Shown here piece by piece: positions 45,157 to 63,309 of a stretch of 64,000 bases of DNA; within the stretch, counting starts at the first letter, position 1; each line of letters opens with the position of its first letter. The notes beneath the pieces were generated by a model. The model saw nothing but the letters and a program-made list of their open reading frames with translations. It made no database searches and was not told the origin of the DNA. The position numbers were made by a program, and so were the translations under genes. This stretch comes from Falsiroseomonas tokyonensis (GTDB taxonomy: Bacteria; Pseudomonadota; Alphaproteobacteria; Acetobacterales; Acetobacteraceae): contig NZ_JAFNJS010000004.1 in NCBI RefSeq assembly GCF_019024325.1, positions 558,001 through 622,000 of the forward strand, read 5' to 3'.

Positions 45157-46367
45157 CGTTTCCGCACCGCCCCCGCGACCACCGCAGCCAGCAGCACCGA
45201 GGCCACCCACCACGGCTGCCAGACGCCGAAGGACAGCTGCCCCGTCACCACGGCCGAGATCGCCATGCCGAAGCCGGCCGGGCTGGCGCCGGCCGCCAGC
45301 AGCGCCGCCGCCCCCAGCGCCGCCGCCAGCACCGCGCCCACCAGGCCCAGCTCCAGCCAGATCTGCAGCGCCGCGTTATGCGTATGCAGCGGCAGGCGCC
45401 GCGCCGCCGGCACGCCGAACCACTGGCGCGCCTCCGGCGAGTTCAGCCCATACTGCGCCAGCTTGTCGGCCGGGAAATTCTCGCTGCCGCCGGGAATGGA
45501 CCGGCTGGATTCCATGCCCCAGCCGAGCAGCGGCTTCTCGGCGATGCGGTCCACCACGAAATCCCAGATCAGCACCCGATGCGCGGCGGAACGCGGAATC
45601 GGCTCCAGCGAGGGCGCCCGCTCCAGCGCCAGGGCAAAGACCAGCGGCGCCGCCAGGCTGAAGGCGGCAAAGGCCAGCGCGGCCAGGCGCGGTGCCGCGC
45701 GCGGCAGCAGCGCCACGGCGCCCGCCGCCAGGATCCCCGCCACGGCTGCAATCTTCGCCGAATCCGCCGGCAGCCACAGCGCCACCGCCAGCCCCGCCGA
45801 CACCAGCACGGCCCGCAGCGCCCAGGCCATCGGCACCGCCAGCACCAGCGGCAGCAGCAGCACCATCAGCGACACGGCCGGCTTCAAGCCGAAGCTAATG
45901 GCCGGCATGTCCGGAAAGCCGCGCACCGCCAGCCGCAGCCAATTGCCGCTCGCATGATCCAGCGCCGCCAGCAGGATCCCCACCGCCAGCCCGCCCGCCA
46001 GCGCCAAGGCCAGCCGTCGCCCGGCCGCGGGCTCCTCCGCCAAGGCGCGCGCCGTCATCAGTGCCAGGCCCAGCAGCGCCGCCAAACCGCCGATCGTCTG
46101 CAGGGCGCGCGCAGGCTCCGGCGACCACAGCGCCGCCACGCCGCACCAGCCCAGCAAGGCCACTGCCAGCCAGGCCACCAGCCCCATCCGCGGCCAGGGC
46201 CACACCCCGCGCACCAGCCGATGCGTCGCCACCGCCGCCACCAGCGCCAGCGTCACCGCCAGCGCCATCGTCCGGAACTGCAGCACCGCAATGCCCGGCG
46301 CCACCGCCAGCAGCACCGCCACCGGCGTGGCCGCGCTCCGCCGCCAGGACATCACCTCAGCCTTCAT
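45153..46367 (-). CDS. O-antigen ligase-like membrane protein
   Basis: A 404-residue polytopic membrane protein with about ten to twelve segments. A periplasmic region between 240 and 330 contains HRVLIWDFVVDRIAEKPLLGWGMESS and PLHTHNAALQIWLELG, the pattern of the Wzy/WaaL (O-antigen ligase-like) family, with the typical conserved H-NxxLQ. It probably ligates or polymerises a surface polysaccharide. Its ATG overlaps the stop of the upstream glycosyltransferase gene (ATGA), so they form one operon. Confidence 0.85.
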   Translation of the reverse strand: MKAEVMSWRRSAATPVAVLLAVAPGIAVLQFRTMALAVTLALVAAVATHRLVRGVWPWPRMGLVAWLAVALLGWCGVAALWSPEPARALQTIGGLAALLGLALMTARALAEEPAAGRRLALALAGGLAVGILLAALDHASGNWLRLAVRGFPDMPAISFGLKPAVSLMVLLLPLVLAVPMAWALRAVLVSAGLAVALWLPADSAKIAAVAGILAAGAVALLPRAAPRLAALAFAAFSLAAPLVFALALERAPSLEPIPRSAAHRVLIWDFVVDRIAEKPLLGWGMESSRSIPGGSENFPADKLAQYGLNSPEARQWFGVPAARRLPLHTHNAALQIWLELGLVGAVLAAALGAAALLAAGASPAGFGMAISAVVTGQLSFGVWQPWWVASVLLAAVVAGAVRKR

Positions 46368-59491: not shown

Positions 59492-60100
59492 CTAGCCGCG
59501 CCGCAGCGCCACCGCCAGCCCCGCCCCCATCAGCACGCCGCCGCCCAGCCGGTTCAGCAGGCGCCGCACCGAGGGCCGCCGCACCGCGCCGGACAGCCGG
59601 CCCGCCAGCGCCGCATAGATCGCGGCATTCGCGGCGGCCAAAGTGACGAAGGTGGCGACCAGCAGCGCGGCCTGCGTCACGAAAGGGCGCGCGGGATCGA
59701 TGAACTGCGGCACGAAGGCCACGAAGAAAACAATGCCCTTCGGGTTCAGCGCGGTGACCAGCCAGGCCTCCCGCATCGCGCGGCCGGCGGGCAGCGGCGG
59801 CGCTGCGCTGGCCTCCACCGGCGCGCGCCACATCTTCACGCCCAGCCAGATGAGATAGCCGGCGCCGATCCATTTCAGCGCGGTGAAGAGCGTGGCGGAG
59901 GCGGCGAGCACCGCCCCCAGCCCGGCCAGCGACAGCGTCATGGCCGTGAGGTCGCCCAGCGCCACCCCGGCCACCAGCGGCAGCGCATTGCGCGCGCCGC
60001 CGCCGAGACTCTGGCCGATCACCAGCAGGATGGTCGGCCCCGGGATCAGCAGCATGACCAGCGCCGCGGCGCAGAAGGCCAGCCAGGTGGCGAGGTCCAC
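59492..60100 (-). CDS. LysE family exporter
   Basis: A 202-residue membrane protein of the LysE/RhtB family with about six segments. LLIPGPTILLVIGQSLGGG is the N-terminal signature and GVKMWRAP, then ALNPKGIVFFVAFVPQFI, follow. These proteins export amino acids or their analogues. A GTG start lies three bases after the metZ stop, so translation is coupled to metZ, suggesting possible export of a sulfur amino acid or homoserine derivative (inference). Confidence 0.92.
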   Translation of the reverse strand: MDLATWLAFCAAALVMLLIPGPTILLVIGQSLGGGARNALPLVAGVALGDLTAMTLSLAGLGAVLAASATLFTALKWIGAGYLIWLGVKMWRAPVEASAAPPLPAGRAMREAWLVTALNPKGIVFFVAFVPQFIDPARPFVTQAALLVATFVTLAAANAAIYAALAGRLSGAVRRPSVRRLLNRLGGGVLMGAGLAVALRRG

Positions 60101-60103
60101 GAC

Positions 60104-61474
60104 CTACTCCTTGCGGCGCGGCGCTTCCGGCAGGTCGCCGGCCAGTTCGAACAGCGTCGCATCCGGCACCGCGGCCGGGCGGGCCTTGGCCGGCTTTTTC
60201 GGCACGGGCGCCGGGGCGGGCTCGGCGCCGACGGGCGGGTCGATCACCACCTTGGCGCGGCGCGTCGGCTTCGGCGCCGGGGCGATGGCGTCCAGCGCCT
60301 CCGACAGGTCCGCGATCAGGTCCGCCACATCCTCCAGCCCGACCGAGAGGCGGATGGTGCCGTCCGTGATGCCGAGGCGCGCGCGTTCCTCGGCGCCCAC
60401 GCGCATATGCGTGGTGGTCGCCGGATGCGTCACCAGGGACTTGGCATCGCCCAGGTTGTTCGAGACGTCGACCAGCTTCAGCGCATCGAGGAAGCGGAAC
60501 GCCTCCTGCTTCCCGCCCTTCACGTCGAAGGTCACCAGGCTGCCGCCGGCGGCCATCTGCGCCTTGGCGAGCGCCTGCTGCGGATGGTCGATGCGGAAGG
60601 GGTAGAGCACGCGCGCGATCTCCACCCGCTCCGCCAGGAAATCGGCGATGGCGGCGGCGGAATGGCACATGGCGGGCAGGCGCAGGTGCAGCGTCTCCAG
60701 CCCCTTCAGGATGACCCAGGCGTTGAAGGGGCTGATGGAGGGGCCGGTATTGCGGATGAAGGGCTGCAGCACCTCATCCACCCACTTCTTGCGCCCGAGC
60801 ACGGCGCCGCCCAGCACGCGGCCCTGGCCGTCCATGTGCTTGGTCAGCGAATAGACCACGACATCGGCGCCGAATTCGATCGGCTTCTGCAGCAGCGGCG
60901 TGGCGAAGACATTGTCCACCACCACCAGCGCGCCGGCCGCATGCGCCAGGTCGCAGACCGCGGCCAGGTCCAGCACGTCCAGCATGGGGTTCGACGGCGT
61001 CTCCAGCAGCACCAGCGCCGTGGGCTCGGACAACGCCGCCCTCCACTGCGCCAGGTCCCCGCCATCGACGAAGACCGAGGTGATTCCGTAGCGCGGCAGC
61101 AGGGTGGAGACGATCCAATGGCAGGAGCCGAACAGCGCGCGCGACGCCACGACGCGGTCGCCCGCCTTCAGATGCGACAGCATGGCGGCATGCACCGCGG
61201 CCATGCCCGTGGCGGTCAACCGGCAGGCCTCCGCGCCCTCCAGCGCCGACAGCCGGTCCTCCAGCATGGTGACGGTGGGATTGCCGAAGCGGGAATACTG
61301 GTAGTGCTGGGTGGTGCCGAGGAAGGTGTCCTCCGCCTGGCCGGCGCTCTCATAGACGAAGCCGGAGGTGAGGTAGAGCGCCTCCGAGGTCTCGTCGTGG
61401 TTGGAGCGCATCTGCCCGCCGCGGACCAGAAGGGTGGCGGGGCGGAGCGGGCGGTCGGGCAGGGTCTTGGCCAT
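60104..61474 (-). CDS. metZ: O-succinylhomoserine sulfhydrylase
   Basis: A 456-residue PLP enzyme forming homocysteine from O-succinylhomoserine and sulfide. LYLTSGFVYESAGQAE, YSRFGNPTVTMLE and ETPSNPMLDVLDLA bind substrate and cofactor, and K212 in YSLTKHMDGQGR forms the Schiff base. Residues beyond about 395 are a Pro/Ala/Lys-rich extension of some 60 residues not present in usual members. A GAGGTG ribosome-binding site precedes the ATG. A SAM-II riboswitch lies 96 bases upstream, so expression should fall when SAM is abundant. Confidence 0.95.
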   Translation of the reverse strand: MAKTLPDRPLRPATLLVRGGQMRSNHDETSEALYLTSGFVYESAGQAEDTFLGTTQHYQYSRFGNPTVTMLEDRLSALEGAEACRLTATGMAAVHAAMLSHLKAGDRVVASRALFGSCHWIVSTLLPRYGITSVFVDGGDLAQWRAALSEPTALVLLETPSNPMLDVLDLAAVCDLAHAAGALVVVDNVFATPLLQKPIEFGADVVVYSLTKHMDGQGRVLGGAVLGRKKWVDEVLQPFIRNTGPSISPFNAWVILKGLETLHLRLPAMCHSAAAIADFLAERVEIARVLYPFRIDHPQQALAKAQMAAGGSLVTFDVKGGKQEAFRFLDALKLVDVSNNLGDAKSLVTHPATTTHMRVGAEERARLGITDGTIRLSVGLEDVADLIADLSEALDAIAPAPKPTRRAKVVIDPPVGAEPAPAPVPKKPAKARPAAVPDATLFELAGDLPEAPRRKE

Positions 61475-61553
61475 CGGGACACCTCATGTTGCAGCCTTCG
61501 CTGCGACGTGTTGGGCGCCCGGCCCCACCAGAGGGCGTCGAGGATTCGCGCAT
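61350..61553 (-). CDS. possible leader reading frame overlapping the metZ start
   Basis: An ATG at 61553 with GGGGTG four bases before it opens a frame beginning MRESSTPSGGAGRPTRRSEG and running 67 codons, 125 bases into metZ in another frame. It starts 17 bases after the riboswitch core, where SAM-II elements usually control the first start codon. Whether it is translated is not known; only the part before the metZ ATG could be under its own selection. Confidence 0.25.
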   Translation of the reverse strand: MRESSTPSGGAGRPTRRSEGCNMRCPDGQDPARPPAPPRHPSGPRRADALQPRRDLGGALPHLRLRL

Positions 61554-61569
61554 GGCGCACCCCGCGACC

Positions 61570-61663
61570 CTTTAGCGCGCTTGTTTTCGGAAGGGGTTTT
61601 GGGAGACCTTCCGCCCGGCACACCGGGACCTCGCCGCAATCAGGCCGGACAAATCGCGAGGGG
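61570..61663 (-). ncRNA. SAM-II riboswitch (long-loop form) in the metZ leader
   Basis: On the minus strand: stem CCTCGC (61661-61656) with conserved GATTTG, then CCGG and TTGC, closing stem GCGAGG (61634-61629). About 41 bases with two hairpins follow (CCCGG/CCGGG; CGGAAGG/CCTTCCG), then AAAACAAG and the invariant GCTAAAG (61576-61570). TTTGT in the loop can pair with ACAAG, giving the pseudoknot. Order and conserved blocks match the SAM-II (metA) family; the insert makes it a long-loop variant. It should repress metZ expression when SAM binds. Confidence 0.8.
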
Positions 61664-61745
61664 CGCTGGCGCGCCTGGGGCGAAGGCTTAGGGGTGGGGC
61701 GGGCGGCGGTCAAGGATGGCGTGGGAGGGCCGGCGCTGGGGCCGC

Positions 61746-61784: not shown

Positions 61785-61822
61785 GCGGGCGTAGTTCAGA
61801 GGTAGAACGTCAGCTTCCCAAG
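61785..61822 (+). other. attachment site: 5' half of tRNA-Gly(CCC)
   Basis: Thirty-eight bases match the 5' half of tRNA-Gly: acceptor GCGGGCG, TA, D arm GTTC/GAAC, anticodon stem TCAGC and loop TTCCCAA with anticodon CCC. The next bases should be GCTGA to close the stem but read GGACG, and no T arm or acceptor 3' strand follows. The gene is therefore interrupted at the anticodon loop by the adjacent integrase element; the missing 3' half should lie at the other end. Confidence 0.8.
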
Positions 61823-61842: not shown

Positions 61843-63309
61843 TCAGCCCGAAACCCCGCAGATTTCCTCATCTTCTGCCGCCTCGACGGCCTCCGGCACC
61901 AGTGCTGGTTGCCTACCCGTGAGCGTGGAGTCTGGGTCCTGACGCGGCTGGTCCGCCCCTTGATCCAGTACCGGCGCTTTCCGGCCGGGTTTGGCTTTCT
62001 TTCTGGCGACGAACTTCGGCTTGCTGCGGTATCGCAGGTCCTCCGGCAGGGCCGCCCTGTGACGGGCCTCGGCGTCGCCGGGTGAGCGTCTCCCCTCCAC
62101 CACATCGGCCACATAGCTCTGCCAGACCCGTAGGGCGGTGATGGCGGAGGCCGATGGCCCGGAGTGGTCATAGGTGGCCACCAGCTTGCTGCGGCCGGTC
62201 ACGTGGTTCAGGGCGGCCTCTGCATCGGCCTCGGTCACGTTCAGGTAGGTCATCCCGGTCCGGGCGGTGCGGCGCAGGTCATGCCATGTCCATCCCGCTG
62301 TGCCGGAGGCTTCGAACAGGCGCCGCAGGAGCTTGCCGTTCCCGGTGAACCCCTGTGTGGGCGACCGGCCGAGCAGCATCCATGCCGGGCCCAGCGCGCC
62401 GGTATCGGGCGGCCAGACCAGTCGCAGTTCGCGCTGTGCCAGTTGGCTCAGTGGCAGGATGTGCTCACGCGAGTTCTTGGTTCGCGCCGCCGGGATCGCC
62501 CAGATGGCGCCATCGGCCATGATCTCGCCGACGCCGATGTTGGCGACCTCAGACACCCGGCAGGCGGTGAGGATCAGCAGGCGGGTGAATGCGCGGAGTT
62601 TCACGGGCTCCCGCTCGGCGGCGTTCCAGACCGCCAGCCATTCATGGTCGTCCAGAACCCGGGTTCGGGGTGGCACATGTGGGGCGATCAGGGTGCGGCC
62701 ACGGCGCGGCAGAGGATGGGTCTCGATCCAGCCCATGGCCTCCGCGTAGCCGAGGAACGACGACACGACGGTGTACAGGAATGCACCCGCACCCGGTGTC
62801 GACTGCGCCACGCCCGCCAGCAGCCGCGTCCATGTCTCGCGCCGGATGTCTCGAAGTGGCTGGAGCCGGATGCGGCGAGGGATATGGACCCGCAGCGCGC
62901 TCTCGACCCGATACGCGTAGGTCCGCGACCATGGCCGCTCCGCCGAGTAGATGCGCGCCCGCTGCCAATCCGTTAGGGCTTGGTCGACCGTGATGGCCGC
63001 TGCTGCTGCTCGACGAACTTCCCGGGCAGCGCGGCGCTCCCCGATTGGATCACGGCCCTGCTGGACGGCACCAAGCTGGACGAGGGCGAGCCTGCGGGCG
63101 TCGGCCACCTTGGTCGAGGGATGTTCGCCAATCTTGATCGAGGTGCGGCGTCCATCGGCGGTCCATGCGCGGACCGACCATGACGCGCGCCGGGATGGCA
63201 GGATGCGCAGCACGAGGCCGCGCACCGTGGCGTCCCATACATCGAGCAGCCGCGTGCGGGTCTCGCGCTGGAGGTCGGCGATGACCGCCTCGGTGACCGC
63301 GATACGCAC
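61843..63309 (-). CDS. tyrosine-type site-specific integrase
   Basis: A 488-residue phage-type integrase. The N-terminal arm-binding domain (DUF4102-like, about 1-90: WSVRAWTADGRRTSIKIGEHPSTKVADARRLA), a SAM-like core-binding domain (about 100-200) and the catalytic domain follow. Catalytic residues are Arg in TACRVSEV, His and Arg in WHDLRRTART, and Tyr in VATYDHSG. A charged C-terminal extension of about 90 residues follows the catalytic domain. It ends 20 bp from the tRNA fragment, the standard position for an integrase next to its att site. Confidence 0.92.
   Translation of the reverse strand: MRIAVTEAVIADLQRETRTRLLDVWDATVRGLVLRILPSRRASWSVRAWTADGRRTSIKIGEHPSTKVADARRLALVQLGAVQQGRDPIGERRAAREVRRAAAAAITVDQALTDWQRARIYSAERPWSRTYAYRVESALRVHIPRRIRLQPLRDIRRETWTRLLAGVAQSTPGAGAFLYTVVSSFLGYAEAMGWIETHPLPRRGRTLIAPHVPPRTRVLDDHEWLAVWNAAEREPVKLRAFTRLLILTACRVSEVANIGVGEIMADGAIWAIPAARTKNSREHILPLSQLAQRELRLVWPPDTGALGPAWMLLGRSPTQGFTGNGKLLRRLFEASGTAGWTWHDLRRTARTGMTYLNVTEADAEAALNHVTGRSKLVATYDHSGPSASAITALRVWQSYVADVVEGRRSPGDAEARHRAALPEDLRYRSKPKFVARKKAKPGRKAPVLDQGADQPRQDPDSTLTGRQPALVPEAVEAAEDEEICGVSG

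Follow-up and report, generated by a model that had tools for sequence, protein, structure and literature searches.

The window, a stretch of 64,000 nucleotides of the Falsiroseomonas tokyonensis genome, carries on its minus strand the gene metZ, with a SAM-II riboswitch aptamer in its leader and an exporter gene 3 nt behind it, next in the likely operon (Table 1). The gene lies 90 nt downstream of the aptamer, its start codon being at 61474. That the element stands ahead of metZ and that a lysE-type gene is coupled to it had both been proposed in a first-pass annotation of this DNA, and the profile matches bear this out. An exporter relative follows metZ in at least 35 of 80 related loci, at gaps of -75 to 573 nt, one of these being a match of 44 residues and some loci being incomplete. 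The encoded MetZ extends some 60 residues past the family profile in a C-terminal tail rich in proline and alanine (residues 395-456; window 60104-60292); in relatives, the match reaches residue 455-456 in 11 of 80 loci and ends at 387-435 in the others. Elsewhere in the window, a tRNA-His of 96 nt called by ARAGORN (46066-46161) falls under the Rfam tRNA cut-off and is likely false.

Upstream of the aptamer lie a probable promoter and the hairpin P0. As a raw count, 70 of 81 metZ leaders have TTGAC at some point within 75 nt upstream of P1. Stems like P0, of at least 5 bp and no more than 2 nt from P1, occur in 50 of 77 upstream stretches (the distinct ones of the 81) against 16.6% of mononucleotide shuffles, compared with 12 among 30 further members of the family (17.7% of shuffles) and 3 of 25 leaders outside the family (12.5%). 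Further upstream, the 5' half of a tRNA-Gly gene (window 61785-61822; Rfam tRNA 21.8 bits, below the cut-off) breaks off, by eye, near the anticodon and adjoins an integrase gene (61843-63309), the two probably marking where an integrated island ends, some 120 nt upstream of the riboswitch. Among seven relatives scanned, a whole tRNA-Gly(CCC) gene occupies this place in L032, L033, L036 and L038, one such gene lies further off in L039, and none is seen in L034 and L037; contig C58 of the window genome also carries a whole tRNA-Gly(CCC) gene.

Table 1. Features of the metZ locus in window coordinates, with the basis of each assignment
Feature	Position	Strand	Basis
Promoter, TTGACC 61713-61708, 17 nt, TAAGCC 61690-61685	61685..61713	-	sigma-70-type, probable; read by eye
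P0 hairpin GGCGC-GCCA-GCGCC, flush against P1 5' strand	61662..61675	-	stem statistics across leaders
SAM-II aptamer, whole	61565..61661	-	RF00521 61661-61628, 29.4 bits; model R1 61661-61563, 91 bits
P1 5' strand CCUCGC, partner 61634-61629	61656..61661	-	RF00521 match; CG/GC changes, wider set
L1 GAUUUG	61650..61655	-	invariant in 35/35 rows of alignment A1
P2a 5' strand CGGCC, partner GGUCG 61569-61565, one G-U	61643..61647	-	91% of A1 cells paired
P2b 5' strand UUGCG, partner CGC(U)AA 61577-61572	61635..61639	-	invariant in A1
P1 3' strand GCGAGG	61629..61634	-	RF00521 match
Insert, 41 nt, P1 to AAAACAAG	61588..61628	-	insert at same place in 64/80 metZ relatives
P3 hairpin CCCGG-UGUG-CCGGG	61614..61627	-	fold; 3 core pairs, 90% of cells paired, 1 both-sided change
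P4 hairpin CGGAAGG-12 nt-CCUUCCG	61588..61613	-	both-sided changes 7/7 pairs, 80% of cells paired, 35 rows
L3 AAAACAAG	61580..61587	-	letters; alignment A1
P2b and P2a 3' strands CGCUAAAGGGUCG	61565..61577	-	letters; alignment A1
Platform block GGCCGGGCGCC	61514..61524	-	complementary to aptamer loop and ribosome-binding site
Ribosome-binding site GAGGUGUCC of metZ	61477..61485	-	read from sequence
metZ, O-succinylhomoserine sulfhydrylase	60104..61474	-	TIGR01325 567.8, cut-off 510
LysE/RhtB-type exporter gene	59492..60100	-	PF01810; below NCBIfam cut-offs for named exporters

The aptamer core and its class

Read along the minus strand, the aptamer runs from the P1 5' strand CCUCGC through L1 (GAUUUG), UCCGGCCUGAUUGCG and the P1 3' strand GCGAGG into a 41-nt segment, followed by AAAACAAG and CGCUAAAGGGUCG. 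The blocks GATTTG, CCGG, TTGC, AAAACAAG and GCTAAAG thus occur in the order in which they had first been noticed, and the letters of the SAM-II pocket (GAUUUG, UUGC, GCUAAA) are all present. In SAM-II, L1 is the strand lying along P2b, according to the portion of the source available (PMC5352136). P1 closes with six of six pairs, the perfect helix CCUCGC/GCGAGG of the first-pass annotation, and P2 with five of five in P2a (one G-U) and five of five in P2b. The pseudoknot first proposed, TTTGT/ACAAG, does not hold: it can be written here with one G-U, but GATTTGT stays unchanged while AAAACAAG becomes AAAAGAAG in L040, AAAATATT in L068 and AAACATG in L094, and with the 3' letters varying while the 5' letters stay, it is not a kept pairing. 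The P2 of SAM-II is instead formed by CGGCC/GGUCG together with UUGCG/CGC(U)AA, so that the low end of the element, placed too high at first, has to reach 61565 to take in P2a, the high end standing at 61661.

Compensatory changes, which the earlier annotation had named as a check, are found in part of the core. In 182 loci, which give 32 distinct P1/P2a combinations, P1 pairs 1, 2 and 4 are seen both as CG and as GC, and the middle pair of P2a is GC, AU or GU, the outermost pair being open in 11 of the 32. Two combinations fail at P1 pairs 1, 2, 3 and 5, which we take to be out-of-register reads with one extra G; one more has A-G at pair 6, and the P1 of L074 is mismatched at its inner end. 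P2a shows no both-sided change within alignment A1 (35 rows), and P2b, nearly invariant in general and invariant in A1, is uninformative on compensation there. A1 holds 35 of the 49 dereplicated insert-bearing leaders (59 distinct, 65 in all including the window) and omits 14 (L034, L041, L042, L054, L074, L075, L076, L080, L082, L086, L095, L098, L102, L107), among them several of the longest inserts and two single-hairpin inserts; P1 is invariant in A1 partly because rows with other P1 letters (L074, L080, L082, L086, L098) were left out.

The local match to the Rfam model SAM_alpha (RF00521; E 7e-4 in 4 kb) upholds the SAM-II class assigned at first, and the 3' half of the aptamer gives a separate local match to this model of 13.8 bits. 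The gathering score of RF00521 is 36 bits, which is a search cut-off and not a biological trait, and at the Rfam gathering threshold the whole window yields two tRNAs only, SAM-II being absent. Throughout the genome, RF00521 at E ≤ 1 finds the metZ leader alone, with no match above the cut-off. R1, a model trained on 35 sequences with the insert, likewise has its sole genome match at E ≤ 1 in this leader, the E-value of 1e-16 being flattered because the window belongs to the R1 training set. The SAM-V model, which we take to be RF01826, gives no match at E ≤ 10 when 266 bases are scanned against all of Rfam. Nor does the long-loop SAM-II model (RF01726), with which the element had been identified at first, match anywhere in the genome at E ≤ 10, while the positive control, Bacteroides ihuae, scores above the cut-off; the proposed covariance-model search thus returns SAM-II, albeit under the gathering score, and not the long-loop family. 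RF01726 shares the core letters GAUUUG, UUGC and GCUAAA, but its consensus has only about 10 nt from P1 to GCUAAA and different joints inside the P1 loop, inserts of single members being invisible in a consensus. Membership in RF01726 is rejected on both grounds, and what remains of the long-loop reading is the enlarged segment itself. In the portion of the literature available, long-loop SAM-II is listed for Bacteroidetes and marine samples (PMC2864571).

The insert and its occurrence among relatives

As had been read from the letters, the enlarged segment holds two hairpins, P3 and P4. It folds in the window as two adjacent hairpins of -17.2 kcal/mol (ViennaRNA), a mild excess in stability with z -2.2 and 4% of 200 dinucleotide shuffles as stable; over the 65 insert-bearing leaders, the window included, the mean z is -1.57, with p ≤ 0.05 in 24 and not in 41. 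In A1, pairs were counted on the named structure, since RNAalifold put P2 pairs in place of P1. On this structure, 92.0% of cells are paired against 84.3% in shuffles, 78 cells are changed on both sides against 36.5, and the covariation score is 0.233 against 0.106, with 0 of 500 shuffles attaining any of the three values; the score falls to 0.058-0.108 when partners are slid. The both-sided changes fall in all seven pairs of P4, one of three in P3 and none in P2a, P1 and P2b being invariant; as the number of such pairs, 8 against 7.2, does not exceed that of shuffles (169 of 500 reach it), support lies in the cell counts and the score. The P3 arms CCC/GGG are fairly constant. Inserts otherwise measure 24-51 nt with free sequence and length and unconserved loops, and mostly form two hairpins, with one in L080, L082, L052 and L058. 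A repeat or mobile origin of the insert was rejected, the genome having no second copy and three other matches at E 0.1 or worse.

A MetZ search of named genomes confirmed 408 relatives, the best 80 of which were kept; by title these come from Roseomonas-like genera or are MAGs assigned to Acetobacteraceae, Rhodospirillales or Alphaproteobacteria. The SAM-II core stands ahead of metZ in all 80 kept relatives, and the insert at the P1-L3 joint is present in 64 and absent from 16, the spacing from P1 to GCUAAA being 12 nt in 15 loci, 13 nt in one and 36-63 nt in 64 (52 in the window). Four close pairs with and without the insert score 28.2/48.8, 31.4/56.2, 33.9/59.8 and 31.4/56.3 bits with RF00521, and in all four only the insert-bearing member fails the Rfam cut-off, which shows that in these pairs the insert decides passing. 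Within the family, RF00521 at E ≤ 0.01 has matches in 127 of 150 genomes (above the cut-off in 109) and R1 in 328 of 397. Among the R1 matches listed, to E 4.6e-10, those of 76-110 nt come from at least 60 of the 328 matching family genomes and the remaining ones measure 58-60 nt, match length serving as a proxy for the insert with letters inspected for part of the matches. Each of the 13 genomes sampled from the window's genus has an R1 match of insert length. Of 385 genomes sampled across the class, 27 gave R1 matches under stricter filters, by which others may be lost, and all these matches except the window's own are 57-60 nt long, with no insert. The insert is not peculiar to the window locus; many Acetobacteraceae carry it. 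The family of the window genome presumably belongs to neither Rhizobiales nor Rhodobacterales. In the part available of an earlier survey, SAM_alpha is reported only from these two orders among the genomes covered (PMC4239095).

Other arrangements also occur. In genus g69 (L169-L172, L182), an insert after P1 resembling one hairpin occupies the same joint, and in L169 and L170 a U-run follows a GGCCGGACG or GGCUGGACG block, which could mark a different platform. A second insertion site is seen in L180 (about 95-230), where the 3' strand of P2b in a SAM-II is interrupted by a hairpin that separates CGC from GCUAAA.

The history of the insert was followed on a MetZ tree of 118 rows, made by a quick method with SH-aLRT support only, and comprising the window, L032-L111, L002-L031 and seven of ten loci from the class search (L116, L121 and L122 gave no MetZ). 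Rows L002-L031 are the 30 best-scoring RF00521 loci, all without the insert, a choice that favours insert-free rows. On this tree the insert state must change 12 times or more (5 or more if only starred branches are counted), compared with 39 changes for shuffled states. All insert-bearing rows fall in one clade of 81 (support 91), inside which 16 insert-free rows are scattered; since the outside rows were chosen by SAM_alpha score and g69 is off the tree, confinement to this clade is not shown. L085 and L105, from one subclade, have inserts similar to those in six rows of the other (63-81% identity, z 4.8-9.4 in 12 comparisons), the rows having been picked by eye and one of the 12 scores not lying above the best of 500 shuffles. 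As the inserts of the two subclades are alike, the insert would most simply be ancestral to the Roseomonas-like Acetobacteraceae clade and have been lost repeatedly, transfer of leaders between lineages being a possible alternative account of its distribution.

The downstream platform

No U-run of five or more lies between the aptamer and the start codon in any of the 81 roseomonad metZ leaders; outside the metZ set, where a fixed stretch of about 97 nt past the aptamer was scanned instead of the distance to the start, such runs occur in one of the 30 other leaders from the family and in 18 of 25 from outside it, groups that differ in composition, fewer U-runs being expected in GC-rich leaders from composition alone. 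The leaders carry in this place a block that reads GCCGGAC or nearly so, about 35-50 nt before the start (median 35 nt), which could pair in two directions. In the window, 61524-61517 is complementary to 61650-61643 of the aptamer at eight of eight positions (one G-U; p 0.1), and 61520-61514 to the ribosome-binding site at seven of seven (two G-U).

Measured against the octamer starting from the G of GAUUUG, the best complementarity is 8/8 in 59 and at least 7/8 in 80 of the 81 metZ leaders, and is significant at p ≤ 0.01 in 31, most GC-rich leaders being individually non-significant; as 22 of the 30 other leaders from the family and 10 of 26 class loci, which have other platforms, also reach 7/8, the number alone proves little. 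L084, L088 and L100 seem to lack the block, their matches elsewhere looking like chance. As to the second pairing, block and ribosome-binding site vary in concert in some leaders. A ribosome-binding site AAGGGCC goes with a block ending in GGCCC (L007, L015, L019), and AAGGUGUCC with GGACGCC or GGACACC (L067, L096). A leader's own block pairs with its ribosome-binding site at -12.39 kcal/mol against -10.77 for permuted partners in 112 leaders (87 beat the swapped mean; 0 of 2000 permutations as low), at -11.8 against -10.13 in 75 dereplicated leaders (57; 0 of 2000), and at -12.17 against -11.48 in 44 dereplicated metZ leaders (25; 20 of 2000). These permutations ignore relatedness, use start codons set by hand-written patterns and cover 112 of 115 leaders, L028 (an empty ribosome-binding-site stretch) and two with fewer than 8 nt being omitted.

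Folding was also computed for those 105 leaders (79 in the metZ set) in which the block can be recognised and lies 22 nt or more from the start. In 64 of these 79, no other stretch pairs with the ribosome-binding site as much as the block does; the pairing probability is above 0.5 in 37 of the 79, 0.40 in the window and 0.01 in L033, the window's nearest relative. Accessibility of the Shine-Dalgarno sequence shows no difference whether the constraints are free or bound-like (0.304 and 0.308, 112 leaders), or whether the block or control stretches are masked (0.315 and 0.315, 105 leaders), in calculations with a nested folding model that cannot hold P1 and the loop-block pairing at once.

A probable SAM-II switch with a peripheral module

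With SAM-II as modelled in RF00521, the element shares P1, L1, P2b with its bulged U, a 5-bp P2a, L3 and a methionine gene downstream, here metZ; it differs by an insert of 24-51 nt after P1, by P0 flush before P1, by the lack of a downstream U-run and by a score under the cut-off. Known SAM-II switches mostly have a 5-bp P2a and terminators, and rarely control translation, as far as the portions available of three sources go (PMC6061858, PMC2258182, PMC1273637). With SAM-V it has in common a stem-loop between the P1 3' end and the A-rich strand that faces the P1 minor groove, in the part available of its description (PMC6061858), which also calls this joint hairpin P3 absent in SAM-II, as well as translational control, here inferred. 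P3/P4 is alike in site only, however: there are two hairpins rather than one 3-bp P3, P2a has 5 bp rather than 2, and the ribosome-binding site lies far from P2a. Sinorhizobium meliloti has a SAM-II ahead of the same gene; the passages available of its study describe translational control for the metA switch, with the Shine-Dalgarno sequence in the P2 region, and a predicted terminator for metZ (PMC9373788), whereas here a separate block about 35-50 nt before the start would cover the Shine-Dalgarno sequence. No description of a SAM-II insert of this kind was found in the part of the open literature searched.

We consider it probable that this is an Acetobacteraceae SAM-II riboswitch with an autonomously folding peripheral piece, P3/P4, and that binding of SAM to the aptamer would turn off translation of metZ. 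The insert would lie outside the pocket, whose letters in L1 and P2b are unchanged, and would bring its own ends together, so that L3 could still run back along P1 and P2 could form; it would be tolerated and not required. With SAM bound, the loop segment GUCCGGCC would be held in L1 and P2a, leaving the block GGCCGGRC free, the 3' part of which could pair with the ribosome-binding site GGUGUCC and thus lower translation of metZ and of the exporter behind it. Without SAM, the loop segment could instead pair with the block, which would then be withheld from the ribosome-binding site. The pairing swaps speak for such a translational OFF switch, the accessibility calculations do not.

Control by transcription termination, as in most SAM-II and as predicted for S. 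meliloti metZ (PMC9373788, in the part available), would agree with the U-runs of SAM-II leaders outside the family, but the absence of such runs from every metZ leader makes it unlikely here. About as improbable is an insert that works in the switch by tuning the SAM response; the routes considered, delayed folding ahead of synthesis of the P2 3' strand or an interaction with either P1 or P0, we rate likewise as doubtful. The match of insert length throughout the window's genus, the compensatory changes in P4, the near-constant P3 arms and the SAM-V hairpin at the same joint (PMC6061858, available part) favour a working insert, yet it is missing in close relatives that keep the rest, and its sequence, length and loops are free. 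A degenerate remnant, a switch broken by the island and the insert, is very improbable: the Rfam score is below the cut-off and an integrase gene and half a tRNA gene lie less than 200 nt away, but the core blocks and the TTGAC box are intact, P2a holds with one G-U, and L033, the nearest MetZ relative (96% identical), has the same form beside a whole tRNA-Gly gene. That short blocks fell into this arrangement by chance in GC-rich DNA can practically be dismissed, short as they are, since the core precedes metZ in every kept relative and the compensatory changes seen in the comparison refute chance.

For the riboswitch with a peripheral P3/P4 piece, the practical consequence is that inserted forms score under the standard cut-off, the genome's only SAM-II match being below the curated score. 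Close pairs with and without the module represent a natural experiment on peripheral hairpins added to a small pseudoknot aptamer. More tentatively, and with slightly more doubt than confidence, we suggest that the open end of P1 is, in SAM-II and SAM-V alike, a site where further structure is optional, that the Roseomonas-like Acetobacteraceae may have gained a two-hairpin module there once, with several clean losses, and that the family switched SAM-II from a terminator to a translational platform. On this platform, one loop segment would be claimed alternately by P2a, when SAM stabilises it, and by a remote anti-ribosome-site block. The family may be a case of an aptamer class moving from transcriptional to translational control.
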